Positions 3,355 to 19,342 of a DNA stretch of 32,223 nucleotides are shown here, in pieces. Each line of letters opens with the position of its first letter. Positions within the stretch are counted from its first letter, which is position 1. The DNA comes from a virus. The stretch covers positions 1 to 32,223 of IMG/VR virus record IMGVR_UViG_3300017724_001819; one strand, 5' to 3'. A program made the position numbers and the translations under genes. Under the pieces are notes generated by a model. The model saw only the letters and a program-made list of their open reading frames with translations. It was not told the DNA's origin and made no database searches.

Positions 3355-3384
3355 CTTTACTTTTCATATAAATAGTGGTATAAT
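3355..3384 (+). promoter_or_regulatory. Composite promoter: early-type -35/-10 with an embedded late TATAAATA box
   Basis: CTTTAC (3355-3360) is followed after exactly 18 bases by TATAAT (3379-3384), with the TGG extension seen in the other promoters of this window. Inside the spacer lies TATAAATA (3367-3374), the consensus of T4 gp55-dependent late promoters. The unit downstream starts with a structural gene and reaches recombination genes uvsY and uvsW, so use at both early and late times makes sense. The late box would place its start site close to the early one. Confidence 0.75.
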
Positions 3385-13733: not shown

Positions 13734-14111
13734 ATGAATCCTTTTGAATACACTAAAGCTATTAATGATACTAAACAAGATATCATGGTAGATGATATCG
13801 CCGAAAAGGGTTACAACTCTTTTATGGTAAACCGCGGTCTAAGTTACTTTAATGACACCGTACTCATGGCTAACGAAATGAATGTTCAACATCATATCGA
13901 TAGTCGTTTACAATTCGATTTTCTTATAAATATAGTTAGAAAGAAAAGACGTTTTTCAAAATGGGCTAAGCCTCAAATTGAGAGTGATATCGAAGTGGTA
14001 AAAGAGTATTATGGTTATAGTAATGAAAAAGCTCGCCAAGCACTTACACTTCTGTCACCCGATCAAATCAATGGGTTAAAAAAGAAGGTGTATAAAGGTG
14101 GAACAAAATAA
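13734..14111 (+). CDS. 62: Clamp loader small subunit gp62
   Basis: Non-ATPase partner of gp44 in loading the sliding clamp. The 125 residues are shorter than T4 gp62 (187), as is usual for marine relatives. Recognisable blocks are the N-terminal MNPFEYTKAIN, YNSFMVNRGLSYFNDTVLMA, and the basic FLINIVRKKRRFSKWAK. It overlaps the start of regA by 14 bases, the same order as in T4 (44-62-regA). Confidence 0.93.
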   Translation: MNPFEYTKAINDTKQDIMVDDIAEKGYNSFMVNRGLSYFNDTVLMANEMNVQHHIDSRLQFDFLINIVRKKRRFSKWAKPQIESDIEVVKEYYGYSNEKARQALTLLSPDQINGLKKKVYKGGTK

Positions 14112-14508
14112 ATTAGTAGAATGGACTCCAGCAAGTATGTTGGAAGTTACATTAAGTGAACCAGACGATTTTTTAAAAGTAAGAGAAACACTGACTCGTA
14201 TCGGTGTAGCATCCCGAAAAGATAAAAAACTATTTCAGTCCTGTCATATTTTACATAAACAGGGAAGGTATTTTATCGTGCATTTTAAAGAGCTATTCTT
14301 GCTAGATGGAAAAAAGGCTAACTTAGAAGAATCAGACATTGGTCGTAGAAATACGATTGCAACGTTGATGGGAGATTGGGGTTTGATTGAAGTACAAGGA
14401 GAGACTTCTCAATTACAAGCTCCATTAAGACAGATTAAAATTATTCCGTTTAAAGAAAAAAATGAATGGGAACTCTGTCCGAAATATAATATTGGAAACA
14501 ACAAATAG
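14098..14508 (+). CDS. regA: Translational repressor RegA
   Basis: Binds the ribosome-start regions of early mRNAs and turns off their translation, including its own in T4. The product is 136 residues (T4: 122). The core block KVRETLTRIGVASRKDKKLFQSCHILHKQGRYFIVHFKELF is split across residues 27-67 and matches the family closely; GRRNTIATLMGDWGL and the Ile/Pro-rich strand near 121 also match. Start is GTG at 14098, with AAGG upstream inside gene 62. Confidence 0.95.
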   Translation: MEQNKLVEWTPASMLEVTLSEPDDFLKVRETLTRIGVASRKDKKLFQSCHILHKQGRYFIVHFKELFLLDGKKANLEESDIGRRNTIATLMGDWGLIEVQGETSQLQAPLRQIKIIPFKEKNEWELCPKYNIGNNK

Positions 14509-14522
14509 GAGTCAATGCAGGG

Positions 14523-14744
14523 ATGCACGTAGTAAAAACTGAAAACGCTGAACTTTTCACAGCAGCTAAATTGCACGCCGAAGGGCAAAGAGCTATTGCA
14601 ATAGCAAATATTAATGTATATGCCAAAAACCCAGCTGGAATTGGAGAACACTCGGATATTGTAGAAGCTATTCAATCAGAACTTGATAAGATTGCTGCAG
14701 CCGATGATAGAATCTCAGCTCTCGAAACTTACTTCTTGTCGTGA
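14523..14744 (+). CDS. Small conserved helical protein after regA
   Basis: A 73-residue all-helical soluble protein, Ala-rich, of unknown function (TENAELFTAAKLHAEGQRA then IVEAIQSELDKIAAADDRI). The ATG at 14523 is required, since the frame of the nearby ATG at 14515 stops after five codons; AGGAG lies about 10 bases upstream. Similar small genes follow regA in other marine T4-like phages as far as I recall. It overlaps the next gene by 4 bases. Confidence 0.75.
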   Translation: MHVVKTENAELFTAAKLHAEGQRAIAIANINVYAKNPAGIGEHSDIVEAIQSELDKIAAADDRISALETYFLS

Positions 14745-15301
14745 TCTATACTAAGGATTGGGCTTTTATGCATATCCCTAAAACTGGTGGTATGAATTTC
14801 ATAAAAAGATCTAATCAACGAGAAGAAGTTATTAATAAACATATAGATCTTCCAGAGTTTTGGGTTCATAAACCTTTACAATATTGGATTGATCAAGGGT
14901 TTTTGACAAATCAATTTATGTTTACTTTTGTTAGAAATCCATATGATCGTTTAGTAAGTCTATATAATCATATTCATGTAAGAGGTAATGCTCCAGATCT
15001 ACCAGACTTTAAAACATTTGTTATGGACGATTGGATTAAAGATAGAGGTCAAATAGACGATTTTAATATTGCTGATCCAGCCGTAAAATTTTTAAAAACA
15101 AAAAGCTGGTTTGACTATACAGTCTTTAAGTTTGAAAATGGTTTTGATAGTGTTGAACATTTAGTTGGTTATAAATTTTCAGATACAACTATCAATAAAA
15201 ATACTCATCCGCATTGGACTACATATTATGATGATAAAACACGTGAAAAAACATACTTAAAGTATGAGGAAGATTTCAATGAATTCGGCTACTCTTACTA
15301 A
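14741..15301 (+). CDS. Sulfotransferase family protein
   Basis: A 186-residue protein with the two PAPS-binding signatures of the carbohydrate sulfotransferase family (Sulfotransfer_2). The 5'-phosphosulfate loop is MHIPKTGGMNF (about residues 10-20), after a beta strand, and the 3'-phosphate site is FVRNPYDRLVSLYNH (about 65-79). The family moves sulfate from PAPS to a sugar or other hydroxyl group. The GTG start (14741) overlaps the preceding stop and is needed to keep the first strand; a start at Met10 would cut into the fold. Substrate unknown; a surface glycan or a modified phage component is possible. It overlaps the next gene by 23 bases. Confidence 0.85.
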   Translation: MIYTKDWAFMHIPKTGGMNFIKRSNQREEVINKHIDLPEFWVHKPLQYWIDQGFLTNQFMFTFVRNPYDRLVSLYNHIHVRGNAPDLPDFKTFVMDDWIKDRGQIDDFNIADPAVKFLKTKSWFDYTVFKFENGFDSVEHLVGYKFSDTTINKNTHPHWTTYYDDKTREKTYLKYEEDFNEFGYSY

Positions 15302-15749: not shown

Positions 15750-15785
15750 GGTTTAAATCTAAGAAAAAGTTATTATATATATTAT

Positions 15786-15849
15786 AGAGCTGCCGAATGA
15801 TCGGGGCTTGAAAATCAATCTTGCTACCAACATAGGAGATATAAACATG
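15786..15849 (+). promoter_or_regulatory. ROSE-like RNA thermometer in the hsp20 leader (predicted)
   Basis: Two hairpins can form just before hsp20. The first is a stable GC-rich stem (15787-15796 with 15801-15809, loop ATGA). The second hides the ribosome site: T15819 to A15826 (TCTTGCTA) pairs with T15833 to A15839 (TAGGAGA) across a 6-nt loop. In it G15823 is left opposite the AGGAG, with T-G, C-G and A-T pairs around it. TTGCT pairing with the Shine-Dalgarno with one extra G is the hallmark of ROSE thermometers, which control small heat-shock genes in proteobacteria. Folding was done by eye; no energy was computed. Confidence 0.6.
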
Positions 15850-16323
15850 ACTGGTAACTTTACATATCCACGAAACGCATTTTTAGGTTTCGACCACATC
15901 TTTGATCAGCTGGAAAATATTCAGCAACACGCCAAAGATACATACCCTCCACATAATGTAGTTAAAATTTCTGATACTCAAACAGTGCTTGAACTTGCTA
16001 TTGCAGGTTTTAATGAAGAGCATTTGGACATTGAGGTCAAAGATCATATTTTGACTATTTCTGGTAATCGTCCGCAAAGACGTAACCAAGAGCAATATGT
16101 GCATAAAGGTATCTCGGCTCGAAAATTTAAGAAGTCATACCGATTGTCAGAGTACACAGAAGTCACTGGAGCAGAAATGAAGGATGGGATTCTAACTGTT
16201 GATCTAGAAGTTATCCTACCTGAAGAGAAGCGTCCTCGTAAAATCAAAATTGGTCAAAACGAGGAAAAATCAAATGACAACACTAGCACTACAAAGCCTG
16301 AGCTTCTCAACGAAAGTTCTTGA
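15847..16323 (+). CDS. hsp20: Small heat-shock protein Hsp20 (IbpA-like, alpha-crystallin domain)
   Basis: ATP-independent chaperone that holds unfolding proteins. The 158-residue product starts FTYPRNAFLGFDHIFDQLE like proteobacterial IbpA. The alpha-crystallin domain covers about residues 35-128, with the block GISARKFKKSYRL, the closing strand MKDGILTVDL, and the C-terminal I-x-I anchor IKI. ATG at 15847 has AGGAG 9 bases upstream, inside a ROSE-like hairpin. hsp20 genes are common in marine T4-like phages, where they may help fold virion proteins. The 3' end overlaps the next gene by 50 bases. Confidence 0.93.
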   Translation: MTGNFTYPRNAFLGFDHIFDQLENIQQHAKDTYPPHNVVKISDTQTVLELAIAGFNEEHLDIEVKDHILTISGNRPQRRNQEQYVHKGISARKFKKSYRLSEYTEVTGAEMKDGILTVDLEVILPEEKRPRKIKIGQNEEKSNDNTSTTKPELLNESS

Positions 16324-16837: not shown

Positions 16838-19342
16838 ATGTCTTTTTACACGTCTGTCTTTAAATATGGCAACCAGTTACTATATCGTGGTTACAATCAT
16901 GATGCGCATCGTATTGAGAAACGCATTAAGTTTGAACCTACTGTTTATGTTCAAACCGACAAACCAACCGACTGGACTTCTTTAGATGGATTACCAGTTG
17001 CACCCGTTAAACCCGGGTCAATTTCTGATACTAAAGAATTCTTTCAAATGTATGACGGTATTTCTAATACTGAAATATATGGTAATACCAACTATGTTCA
17101 TCAATACATTACAGAACGTTTTCCTAATCAAATCAAGTTCGAAAGATCTTGGATAAACGTATGTAATATTGATATCGAAGTTGCTTCTGATGACGGTTTC
17201 CCTGAACCCGGTGAAGCAGCACACCCTATCATTTCAATTGCACTTAAGTCAAGTAAAAATCCTAACTATTTCGTGTGGGGTTTAGATGACTACACTCCTG
17301 CAGAAAATGTACGATATAAACAATTTAAGAATGAAGCTGACTTACTTCAAAGCTTTTTGTTATACTGGGCTGAAAACTGTCCTGATGTTATAACTGGCTG
17401 GAATGTTCGATTCTTTGATATTCCTTACATTGTTAATCGTATGAATAAAATTCTCGATGATGGTGCAGTAAAACTGTTATCACCATGGAAAATCTTGTTA
17501 CCTGAAGAACGTACTATTCGTGGTCGTAAACAACAAGCATATCGTTTGTGTGGTGTTGAACAACTTGACTATATGGAATTGTTTATAAAGTTTGGCTACT
17601 CATATGGTAATCAAGAATCATATGCACTAAATCATATTGCTAATGTTGTCCTCGGCGAAAAGAAATTATCATACGAAGAGTATGGTAACTTGTTTACGTT
17701 ATATAAAGAAAATCACCAAAAGTTTATTGAATATAATATTCGAGATGTTGAGTTGGTTGACCGCCTCGAAGAAAAGATGGGTCTTATTACGTTAGCACTA
17801 ACGATGGCGTATAAAGGTGGTGTCAATTATGGTGACACCTTTGGTACAACTGCAATATGGGATTCAATCATCTATCGTGAATTGAATTCAAATAAAATTG
17901 CTATTCCACAAAACAAAGATAAATTTAAATCTGAATATCCCGGTGGTTATGTAAAAGATCCTCAAGTTGGTTTACATGAATGGGTAGTATCATTCGATTT
18001 GAATTCTCTTTATCCTAATCTTATTGTTCAATATAACATGTCACCTGAAACTATTGTCGGTAAAGGTACTGACTTAGCTGGTGTTAAAAATTATCTAGAC
18101 ATGTTTGAAGAGTCAGACACAGATAAACCATTGCTCGCTGGTCCTAATGGATCTAATGTTGCTGTTGCTGCTAATGGTGTAGGGTTCAGTAAAGAAAAGC
18201 AAGGTGTACTACCAAAAATCATTATTGAATATTATGATGAACGTGCTTCAATTAAAAAGATAATGATTGCTGCACAAAAACAATATCAATTGACGCCAAC
18301 CTTTGAACTTGAAAAAGAAATCAATCAACTTGAAAATCGTCAAATGGCGATTAAAATTCTACTTAATTCACTTTATGGTGCATTAGGTAATAAATACTTC
18401 AGATACTTCGATATGCGTATTGCCGAAGGTATTACATTGTCAGGTCAGCTTGCTATTCAATGGGCTGAAAAAGCAATGAACAAACAGATGAATTCAATCC
18501 TAGGTACGAAAGATAAAGATTATGTCATTGCTATCGATACTGATTCATTGTATGTCAACTTTTCTAAGATGGTTGAAAAGTTTAATCCAAAAGATCCTAC
18601 TAAATTTCTTGATAAGATTTGTTCTGAACATTTTGAAGGTGCTATGGGAAAGGCTTACCAAAACTTATCCCAGATAATGAATGCATATTCTAACCGCATG
18701 GTTATGGCTCGTGAAGCTATTGCTGATAGAGGTATTTGGACAGCAAAGAAAAGATATATTCTTAATGTGCACAACAATGAAGGTGTACAATATGCTGAAC
18801 CTAAACTAAAGATCATGGGTATTGAAGCTATTAAATCAAGTACACCAATGATTGTACGTGAAAGATTTAAGCAAGCATTTAAGACTATCATTTCAGGTGA
18901 TGAAAAACTAACTCAAGACTTTATCTTTAATTTTCGTAATGAATTCTATAAACTATCTCCTGATCAAGTATCATTTCCACGTAGTGCCAATAACATCCAT
19001 GAATTTGTAGATCGTAAAACGGTCTATAAGAAAAGCACACCAATTCATGTTCGTGGTTCTATCATGTATAATAATGAAATCAAACGTTTGACTTTGTCTA
19101 AAAAGTATCAAAAGATCAACAACGGTGAAAAGATTAAATTCTGCTACTTACGTTTGCCGAATCCAATCCGTGAAAATGTTATATCTTTTCCAGATTACTT
19201 GCCAACTGAATTAAATCTGCACTCATATATAGACTACGAAAAGCAATTTAATAAATGTTTCCTTGACCCACTCACTCCTATCTTAGATGCTGTAGGTTGG
19301 TCATCAGAAGATCAAATGACACTGGAGGATTTCTTTGGATAA
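16838..19342 (+). CDS. 43: DNA polymerase gp43 (family B)
   Basis: Replicative polymerase with proofreading. The 834 residues (T4: 898) form one uninterrupted chain, with no intein or split. Exonuclease motifs: NIDIEVASDDG (Asp112, Glu114), NVRFFDIPYIVNR, and YNIRDVELVDRLE. Polymerase motifs: A FDLNSLYPNL (Asp387), B ILLNSLYGALGNKYFRYFD, and C IDTDSLYVNF (Asp567, Asp569). The C-terminal end (DQMTLEDFFG) looks like a clamp-binding peptide, as in T4. It overlaps the next gene by 8 bases. Confidence 0.98.
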   Translation: MSFYTSVFKYGNQLLYRGYNHDAHRIEKRIKFEPTVYVQTDKPTDWTSLDGLPVAPVKPGSISDTKEFFQMYDGISNTEIYGNTNYVHQYITERFPNQIKFERSWINVCNIDIEVASDDGFPEPGEAAHPIISIALKSSKNPNYFVWGLDDYTPAENVRYKQFKNEADLLQSFLLYWAENCPDVITGWNVRFFDIPYIVNRMNKILDDGAVKLLSPWKILLPEERTIRGRKQQAYRLCGVEQLDYMELFIKFGYSYGNQESYALNHIANVVLGEKKLSYEEYGNLFTLYKENHQKFIEYNIRDVELVDRLEEKMGLITLALTMAYKGGVNYGDTFGTTAIWDSIIYRELNSNKIAIPQNKDKFKSEYPGGYVKDPQVGLHEWVVSFDLNSLYPNLIVQYNMSPETIVGKGTDLAGVKNYLDMFEESDTDKPLLAGPNGSNVAVAANGVGFSKEKQGVLPKIIIEYYDERASIKKIMIAAQKQYQLTPTFELEKEINQLENRQMAIKILLNSLYGALGNKYFRYFDMRIAEGITLSGQLAIQWAEKAMNKQMNSILGTKDKDYVIAIDTDSLYVNFSKMVEKFNPKDPTKFLDKICSEHFEGAMGKAYQNLSQIMNAYSNRMVMAREAIADRGIWTAKKRYILNVHNNEGVQYAEPKLKIMGIEAIKSSTPMIVRERFKQAFKTIISGDEKLTQDFIFNFRNEFYKLSPDQVSFPRSANNIHEFVDRKTVYKKSTPIHVRGSIMYNNEIKRLTLSKKYQKINNGEKIKFCYLRLPNPIRENVISFPDYLPTELNLHSYIDYEKQFNKCFLDPLTPILDAVGWSSEDQMTLEDFFG

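Follow-up and report, generated by a model that had tools for sequence, protein, structure and literature searches.

The two-hairpin ROSE element of Pseudomonas has been shown experimentally to work as an RNA thermometer, and removal of its bulged G locks the switch (PMC3669281). Another structured RNA, the manA motif, has been described upstream of ibpA genes in cyanophages and in marine metagenomes (PMC2864571). The hsp20 gene belongs to the core genes of T4-like cyanophages (PMC3037559), and cyanophage small heat-shock proteins (sHSPs) are nearer class A than cyanobacterial sHSPs in published trees (PMC3827213). The sequence ATTCAAACTCGCTTAAATA before the hsp20 gene of S-PM2 has been listed as a putative Pho box, with neither PhoB binding nor a phosphate response observed (PMC10976474). 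In the open-licence literature searched, we found no described regulation of the cyanophage hsp20 gene.

The hsp20 leader and its inferred promoter

The window, i.e., the whole 32,223-nucleotide stretch of DNA that was analysed, is a 32 kb virus record of a T4-like myovirus, in which genes for scaffold, major capsid, gp45, a gp62-type clamp loader, regA, gp43, and a UvsX-like protein are present. The hsp20 product matches PF00011 (Hsp20, E 1.8e-17) and PHROG 432 Hsp20 (E 1.1e-35), and among NCBIfam models is closest to IbpA (E 9e-31). The gene is located between a regA-like gene and the gene for gp43 DNA polymerase (Table 1), and this order recurs in many cultured T4-like phages. A sulfotransferase-like ORF, a candidate for host modification, is also found between regA and hsp20 (14741-15301; PHROG 3347, E 6.7e-6).

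Table 1. Positions of the hsp20 leader, its promoter-like box, and neighbouring genes in the window
Feature	Position	Strand	Description
regA-like translational repressor	14098-14508	+	PHROG 242, E 4e-59; upstream neighbour of hsp20
T4-late-promoter-like box	15774-15781	+	TATATATA, variant of TATAAATA
hsp20 5' leader	15787-15846		One stable hairpin, then one weak hairpin
Hairpin 1 (stable)	15787-15809	+	GAGCU[G]CCGA(AUGA)UCGG GGCUU; outer stem 15787-15791/15805-15809, bulged G15792, inner stem 15793-15796/15801-15804, loop AUGA
Hairpin 2 (proposed thermosensing hairpin)	15818-15840	+	AUCUU[G15823]CUA(CCAACA)UAG GAGAU; anti-SD AUCUU-G-CUA 15818-15826, loop 15827-15832, UAG GAGAU 15833-15840
Shine-Dalgarno AGGAG	15834-15838	+	Paired inside hairpin 2
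hsp20	15847-16323	+	158 aa, class-A (IbpA-like) small heat-shock protein; ATG 15847-15849
gp43 DNA polymerase	16838-19342	+	PHROG 262; downstream neighbour of hsp20

The stem of hairpin 2 is formed by AUCUU[G]CUA and UAGGAGAU, and G15823 bulges out across from the Shine-Dalgarno (SD) sequence. The U(U/C)GCU anti-SD motif of ROSE elements is present as UUGCU (15821-15825), which pairs with AGGAG. When the window leader was subjected to 1000 dinucleotide shuffles, hairpin 1 was equalled in 0.1% and hairpin 2 in 0.2% of them, and both hairpins in none; of the 27 remaining gene starts in the window, none had high scores for the two hairpins together. The bulged G of hairpin 1 is followed by a C-G pair, an arrangement that mirrors hairpin 2. 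It is also seen in nearly all relatives, in bacterial loci, and in the ROSE_3 consensus, and a tertiary role is conceivable.

A T4 late box is located at positions −13 to −6 relative to the transcript start. By this geometry, the box in the window is inferred to place the transcript start at G15787, where hairpin 1 begins; transcript ends are unmapped. In T4-like phages generally, TATAAATA or a near-identical box ends 8-12 bases before the bulged G of hairpin 1. With at most one mismatch allowed, the box was found at the matching place in 47/47 window-clade, 9/10 S-RSM4-type, 38/52 Melnitz-type, and 29/44 S-SKS1-type leaders, the frequency expected from shuffles being 4-11%. It is mostly absent from pelagiphage podoviruses, one of which, HTVC115P (L083, upstream of 1465), has the sigma-70-like TTGACA...TATAAT. 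Thus, one RNA unit appears to be wired to two promoter types, promoter function being inferred. Exact TATAAATA boxes occur in the window six times on the + strand (at 3367, 6195, 7017, 7403, 11041, and 13925), and never on the − strand.

Homology searches and covariation

A cmscan search of 401 bases of the window returned ROSE_3 (RF02523) as the best of 4227 Rfam families, with a match over the full model length at 28.3 bits (E 5.6e-4). The score is below the ROSE_3 gathering score of 43 bits, and by this cut-off the leader is not a member of RF02523. An Rfam scan at the gathering threshold reported nothing for the window leader, and a routine Rfam scan therefore misses the element. None of 20 relatives tested reached the ROSE_3 gathering score, and at E<1 the SAR11 versions and most cyanophage versions went undetected by Rfam.

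Relatives were collected in five IMG/VR scans with different phage Hsp20s, which yielded 400 loci, and from 24 annotated phage records, including one that resembles host DNA. Over 300 phage hsp20 leaders were gathered. Among 236 distinct hsp20 leaders of phages, 232 contain the two hairpins, each with a bulged G; with score cut-offs held fixed, 89% of the natural leaders passed, as did 0.5% of shuffles. The phages that carry the element include T4-like cyanophages, pelagiphages, methylophages, and pelagiphage podoviruses. A common plan is shared by nearly all leaders: an outer stem of ~5 pairs, a bulged G, an inner stem that usually starts with C-G, and a short loop; after a spacer, the same plan is repeated as hairpin 2, with the SD in the 3' arm. 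The hairpin parser used demands a G bulge and some of the pairs, which makes columns at 100% a product of construction, and only variable pairs and independent alignments count as evidence.

A single MAFFT alignment over all clades misaligned hairpin 1, and was replaced by a seed alignment of leaders with equal hairpin lengths (A5) and a covariance model. RNAalifold, applied to a plain MAFFT alignment of ten leaders, predicted the same fold, with two-sided changes in 10/16 pairs. By pair counts in the ten-leader alignment, covariation was 0.484, compared to 0.177 for shuffled and at most 0.084 for slid controls. In 45 distinct leaders aligned with the covariance model, 93.9% of cells were paired, 137 cells had changed on both sides, and covariation was 0.494 (shuffled, 0.150; slid, at most 0.084); this larger alignment is fitted to the structure. 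Changes on both sides were found for eight of the nine hairpin 1 pairs in the seed, and for all nine in the 45 leaders. Hairpin 2 is constrained by the SD, but its flanking pairs covary, and in cultured phages its outer stem has been wholly replaced and is still paired (GUC/GAC in S-RSM4, CCAC/GUGG in S-TIM61, and UUUUAC/GUAAAA in S-B68). The G aligned with G15823 is invariant in A5, and is left unpaired in the RNAalifold fold. A chance fold was rejected, since the shuffles, the other gene starts, the covariation, and the RNAalifold fold are all against it. Thus, as far as sequence, covariation, and models allow, the ROSE-like architecture, the sequestration of the SD by pairing, and the covariation are established.

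A covariance model (R1) was built from ten phage leaders. It matched 46/61 tested sources at E<=0.01. When run on ten long or complete phage records, it gave a single match in eight, and those of the matches that were checked were at the hsp20 leader; one record had two matches, the second being weak (E 0.016) and before no recognised gene. None was found in the remaining record, S-RSM4, whose hairpin 2 is divergent. The bacterial matches are in hsp20 leaders of SAR11, Rhodobiaceae/OCS116, Glaciecola, and others. Within the SAR11 family, R1 matched 49/79 genomes, including HIMB114, and at the six new loci that were inspected the match was immediately before hsp20.

Several individual loci are recorded here as observations. 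In one locus (L226:290-584), such a leader precedes a small ORF whose resemblance to phasins is weak and does not reach the cut-off (Phasin_2, E 0.014); the ORF is located directly upstream of hsp20, as if the thermometer were common to both. A similar leader, GAGU[G]CC..GGGCUC followed by AUCUUGCGUAAAGGAGAU, is found before an hsp20-like gene in a phage of another family, the Pseudomonas jumbo phage phi30-2 (L503, upstream of 359). The annotated hsp20 starts of S-SRM01 (L092, 1390) and Sf-CH3 (L506, 341) fall inside the thermometer; the real hsp20 ATG is likely downstream of AAGGAG.

Computed temperature behaviour

Two-state melting calculations with nearest-neighbour energies place the melting of hairpin 1 in the window at ~78 °C and that of hairpin 2 at ~49 °C; hairpin 1 was computed to be the more stable of the two in 98% of leaders. 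Computed melting temperatures of hairpin 2 were about 42-57 °C in phages, 27-49 °C in SAR11, and 51 °C in Glaciecola. Several other alphaproteobacterial and Aeromonas ROSE hairpins melted at 60-87 °C in the same calculation, above phage and SAR11 values. The lower model-derived values in phages and SAR11 fit lower set-points. They do not prove them, because nearest-neighbour energies leave out the non-canonical pairs of ROSE elements, making absolute temperatures unreliable.

In the computed ensemble of the window leader, predicted SD opening was 0.22 at 5 °C and increased to 0.74 at 50 °C. When G15823 was left out of the fold, computed opening was <=0.04, i.e., the SD was locked shut. With nine coding bases included, the full ensemble of window-clade leaders favoured an alternative, in which the hairpin 2 loop is paired with the start region, and the predicted state of the SD is therefore not clean. 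Since SD opening was sensitive to the length of coding sequence included, the full-ensemble readout was not used for set-points. The complementarity, which is strong only in this clade and is predicted to compete with the SD hairpin, involves positions 15824-15833 and 15845-15858 of the window, with UACCA/UGGUA in the window and AGUCA/UGACU in the clade (L001-L080). In the window clade, the calculated energy of pairing between the loop and the start-codon region was −7.9 kcal/mol, vs. −3.6 kcal/mol for shuffled loops. No covariation between loop and start region was found within the window clade or in other clades. The models thus leave loop/start-codon pairing as a possible second lock in this clade.

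A previous sequence-only reading of the window had proposed a ROSE-like thermometer on a phage hsp20 gene. The coordinates, sequence, two-hairpin fold, SD pairing, and single unpaired G that it gave were all confirmed. The bulged G15792 of hairpin 1 and the late-promoter-like box at 15774-15781 had escaped it. Its assignment to ROSE held as regards anatomy (the U(U/C)GCU anti-SD and the unpaired G opposite the SD), the temperature response being computed only, and its identification of the target as an IbpA-like Hsp20 held as well (PF00011; IbpA the closest NCBIfam model). Of the checks it had proposed, the Rfam search gave a match to ROSE_3 that is below the gathering score, and the search for compensatory changes in related phages revealed strong covariation in homologous leaders; neither absence of covariance nor absence of a covariance-model hit, which it had named as refuting outcomes, occurred. 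Its check of the fold against temperature was run computationally: predicted SD opening rises on warming, and the SD is predicted to stay shut without G15823. It knew of no description of the arrangement for such phages; we found no description of ROSE in any phage in the open-licence literature searched.

Origin, interpretation, and comparison with known systems

In the Hsp20 tree, most bacterial IbpAs (29 rows, support 100/98) are separate from the phage Hsp20s. SAR11 Hsp20s are nested among the latter, for example with that of phage Mosig. The hsp20 gene of HIMB114 lies between peptidase-like and glutathione-synthetase-like genes (ORFs judged by eye), and we take it to be chromosomal on account of this cellular neighbourhood. 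The leader is found on both the phage and the bacterial sides, which makes the gene and its thermometer an old pair. The phages likely gained the class-A Hsp20 together with its switch long ago; the donor, and the direction of transfer between SAR11 and phages, are unresolved. The placement in class A relative to cyanobacterial sHSPs rests on PMC3827213. The earlier proposal that the complete regulated unit was transferred from a proteobacterial host is therefore upheld in part: alphaproteobacteria, including SAR11, have Hsp20 with such a leader, and the protein is of class A and not cyanobacterial. A fresh single transfer is not supported, as phage Hsp20s are apart from most bacterial IbpAs and mixed with those of SAR11, which points to an old common unit.

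Some rows of the tree (L414, L415, L440, L444, L462, and L483) are titled as Bacteroidota, Rhodobacteraceae, or Neomarinimicrobiota genomes, yet group with phage Hsp20s, and the Hsp20 protein of L415 is identical to that of viral contig L310. Bacteroidota, Neomarinimicrobiota, and some other "host" rows were excluded as donors, being likely phage contigs in MAGs or prophages.

We consider it likely (probability ~0.83) that the leader acts as a ROSE-type RNA thermometer controlling the translation of a late mRNA for class-A Hsp20. Melting is computed, and thermoregulation in vivo is inferred; there is no experiment on any phage leader, and what a lytic phage would gain from a thermometer where the water temperature is fairly stable is unexplained. 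In this view, late transcription would begin at the foot of hairpin 1. This hairpin would fold first, insulating hairpin 2 and possibly shielding the 5' end. As long as the sea is at its normal temperature, hairpin 2 would bar 30S subunits from the SD. Upon warming, the weak U.G/bulged-G core of hairpin 2 would open, with hairpin 1 remaining folded, and Hsp20 would then be made at once from existing mRNA, so that late in infection the folding of host as well as phage proteins is guarded.

An alternative is that the SD hairpin serves for timing and does not respond to temperature, like the hairpins known for T4 genes e and soc. It would mask the hsp20 start in read-through early transcripts, and late transcripts, lacking one arm, would be translated. 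The location of hsp20 inside the early/middle replication cluster (regA-gp43), with a late-promoter box, means that timing would make sense. However, the box is upstream of both hairpins and the predicted +1 is at the foot of hairpin 1, so late mRNA would retain the mask; moreover, the hairpins are also found under a sigma-70-like promoter in podoviruses and on SAR11 chromosomes, where there is no T4 late switch. We regard this explanation as very unlikely.

Equally hard to sustain is the view that the conserved block is bound by a protein, either by PhoB at the DNA level or by a RegA-type repressor at the RNA level, and that the hairpins are incidental to this site or part of it. In its favour, regA is the upstream neighbour in many phages, and ATTCAAACTCGCTTAAATA, the putative Pho box of PMC10976474, is the anti-SD strand of the S-PM2 element, attcaaactcgcttaaataaaggag (L495, NC_006820, upstream of 362). 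Against it, the S-PM2 hsp20 region neither bound PhoB nor answered to phosphate (PMC10976474), paired bases change together, which is not required of a DNA site, and the unit is common to podoviruses and SAR11. A third possibility, that the leader is a relic which came in with a bacterial hsp20, lost its regulation, and was kept as a 5' stabiliser (hairpin 1) plus an ordinary start region, draws on the mRNA stabilisation suggested for hairpin 1 in Pseudomonas (PMC3669281), and is very improbable given that compensatory changes have preserved hairpin 2 too in phages that diverged deeply, and that its bulged G is invariant in the seed alignment.

If the thermometer reading is correct, very abundant lytic viruses would sense temperature directly during infection, without a host sensor, and the element would provide a concrete, testable cause for temperature effects on marine infections. 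The range of ROSE elements, so far bacterial, also widens to take in SAR11 and several hundred phages, of which those that were scanned are not flagged at the Rfam cut-off, and the identity of the anti-SD strand explains the failed Pho-box prediction for S-PM2 hsp20 (PMC10976474). A bolder version holds that most marine T4-like phages, cyanophages included, place a thermometer of proteobacterial type under their own late promoter, that the locked hsp20 message is freed within minutes of warming, that the melting point is set to sea temperatures, and that a second lock operates in the window clade. Taken as one joint claim, this version seems to us slightly more apt to fail than to hold.

Among known systems, the manA RNA motif (RF01745; PMC2864571) is likewise a structured RNA that occurs in leaders of marine phages, in some cases ahead of ibpA; its structure is different, and it was matched by no leader scanned here. 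Lambda cIII (PMC4166951) and the SPbeta blyA fourU element (PMC10586365) are also temperature-dependent leader RNAs of phage genes, but they have other folds, belong to temperate phages and non-chaperone genes, and are not ROSE. The Anabaena ROSE-like element and the Synechocystis hsp17 thermometer (PMC4166951) likewise control sHSP genes; unlike these, cyanophage hsp20 is of class A and not of the cyanobacterial type (PMC3827213), and it has a leader of the ROSE type found in proteobacteria. Chromosomal hsp20 leaders of SAR11 (Pelagibacteraceae), found with the phage-built model, have the same two-hairpin unit as the phages. They differ in serving a cellular gene, in the absence of a late-promoter context, and in that some of their hairpins are weaker still (27-49 °C, computed).

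The two-hairpin ROSE-like thermometers of Pseudomonas ibpA (PMC3669281; cf. RF02523) resemble the phage leader in having a stable first and a labile second hairpin, the U(U/C)GCU anti-SD, a bulged G opposite the SD, and an IbpA-type sHSP downstream; the ROSE_3 consensus, like the phage leaders, also leaves a G unpaired in hairpin 1. Unlike the Pseudomonas type, the phage leader is phage-borne, has a late-promoter box at the foot of hairpin 1, and is below the Rfam cut-off. Its hairpin 2 in the window is also weaker, with computed melting at about 49 °C vs. 63 °C in the Pseudomonas-type leader of "Pseudomonas phage Y7" (L085, 69 bits with ROSE_3), an unverified record that looks like host DNA and was used only for this comparison. 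By anatomy, the element thus belongs to the broad ROSE class, as a variant of a known thermometer type.
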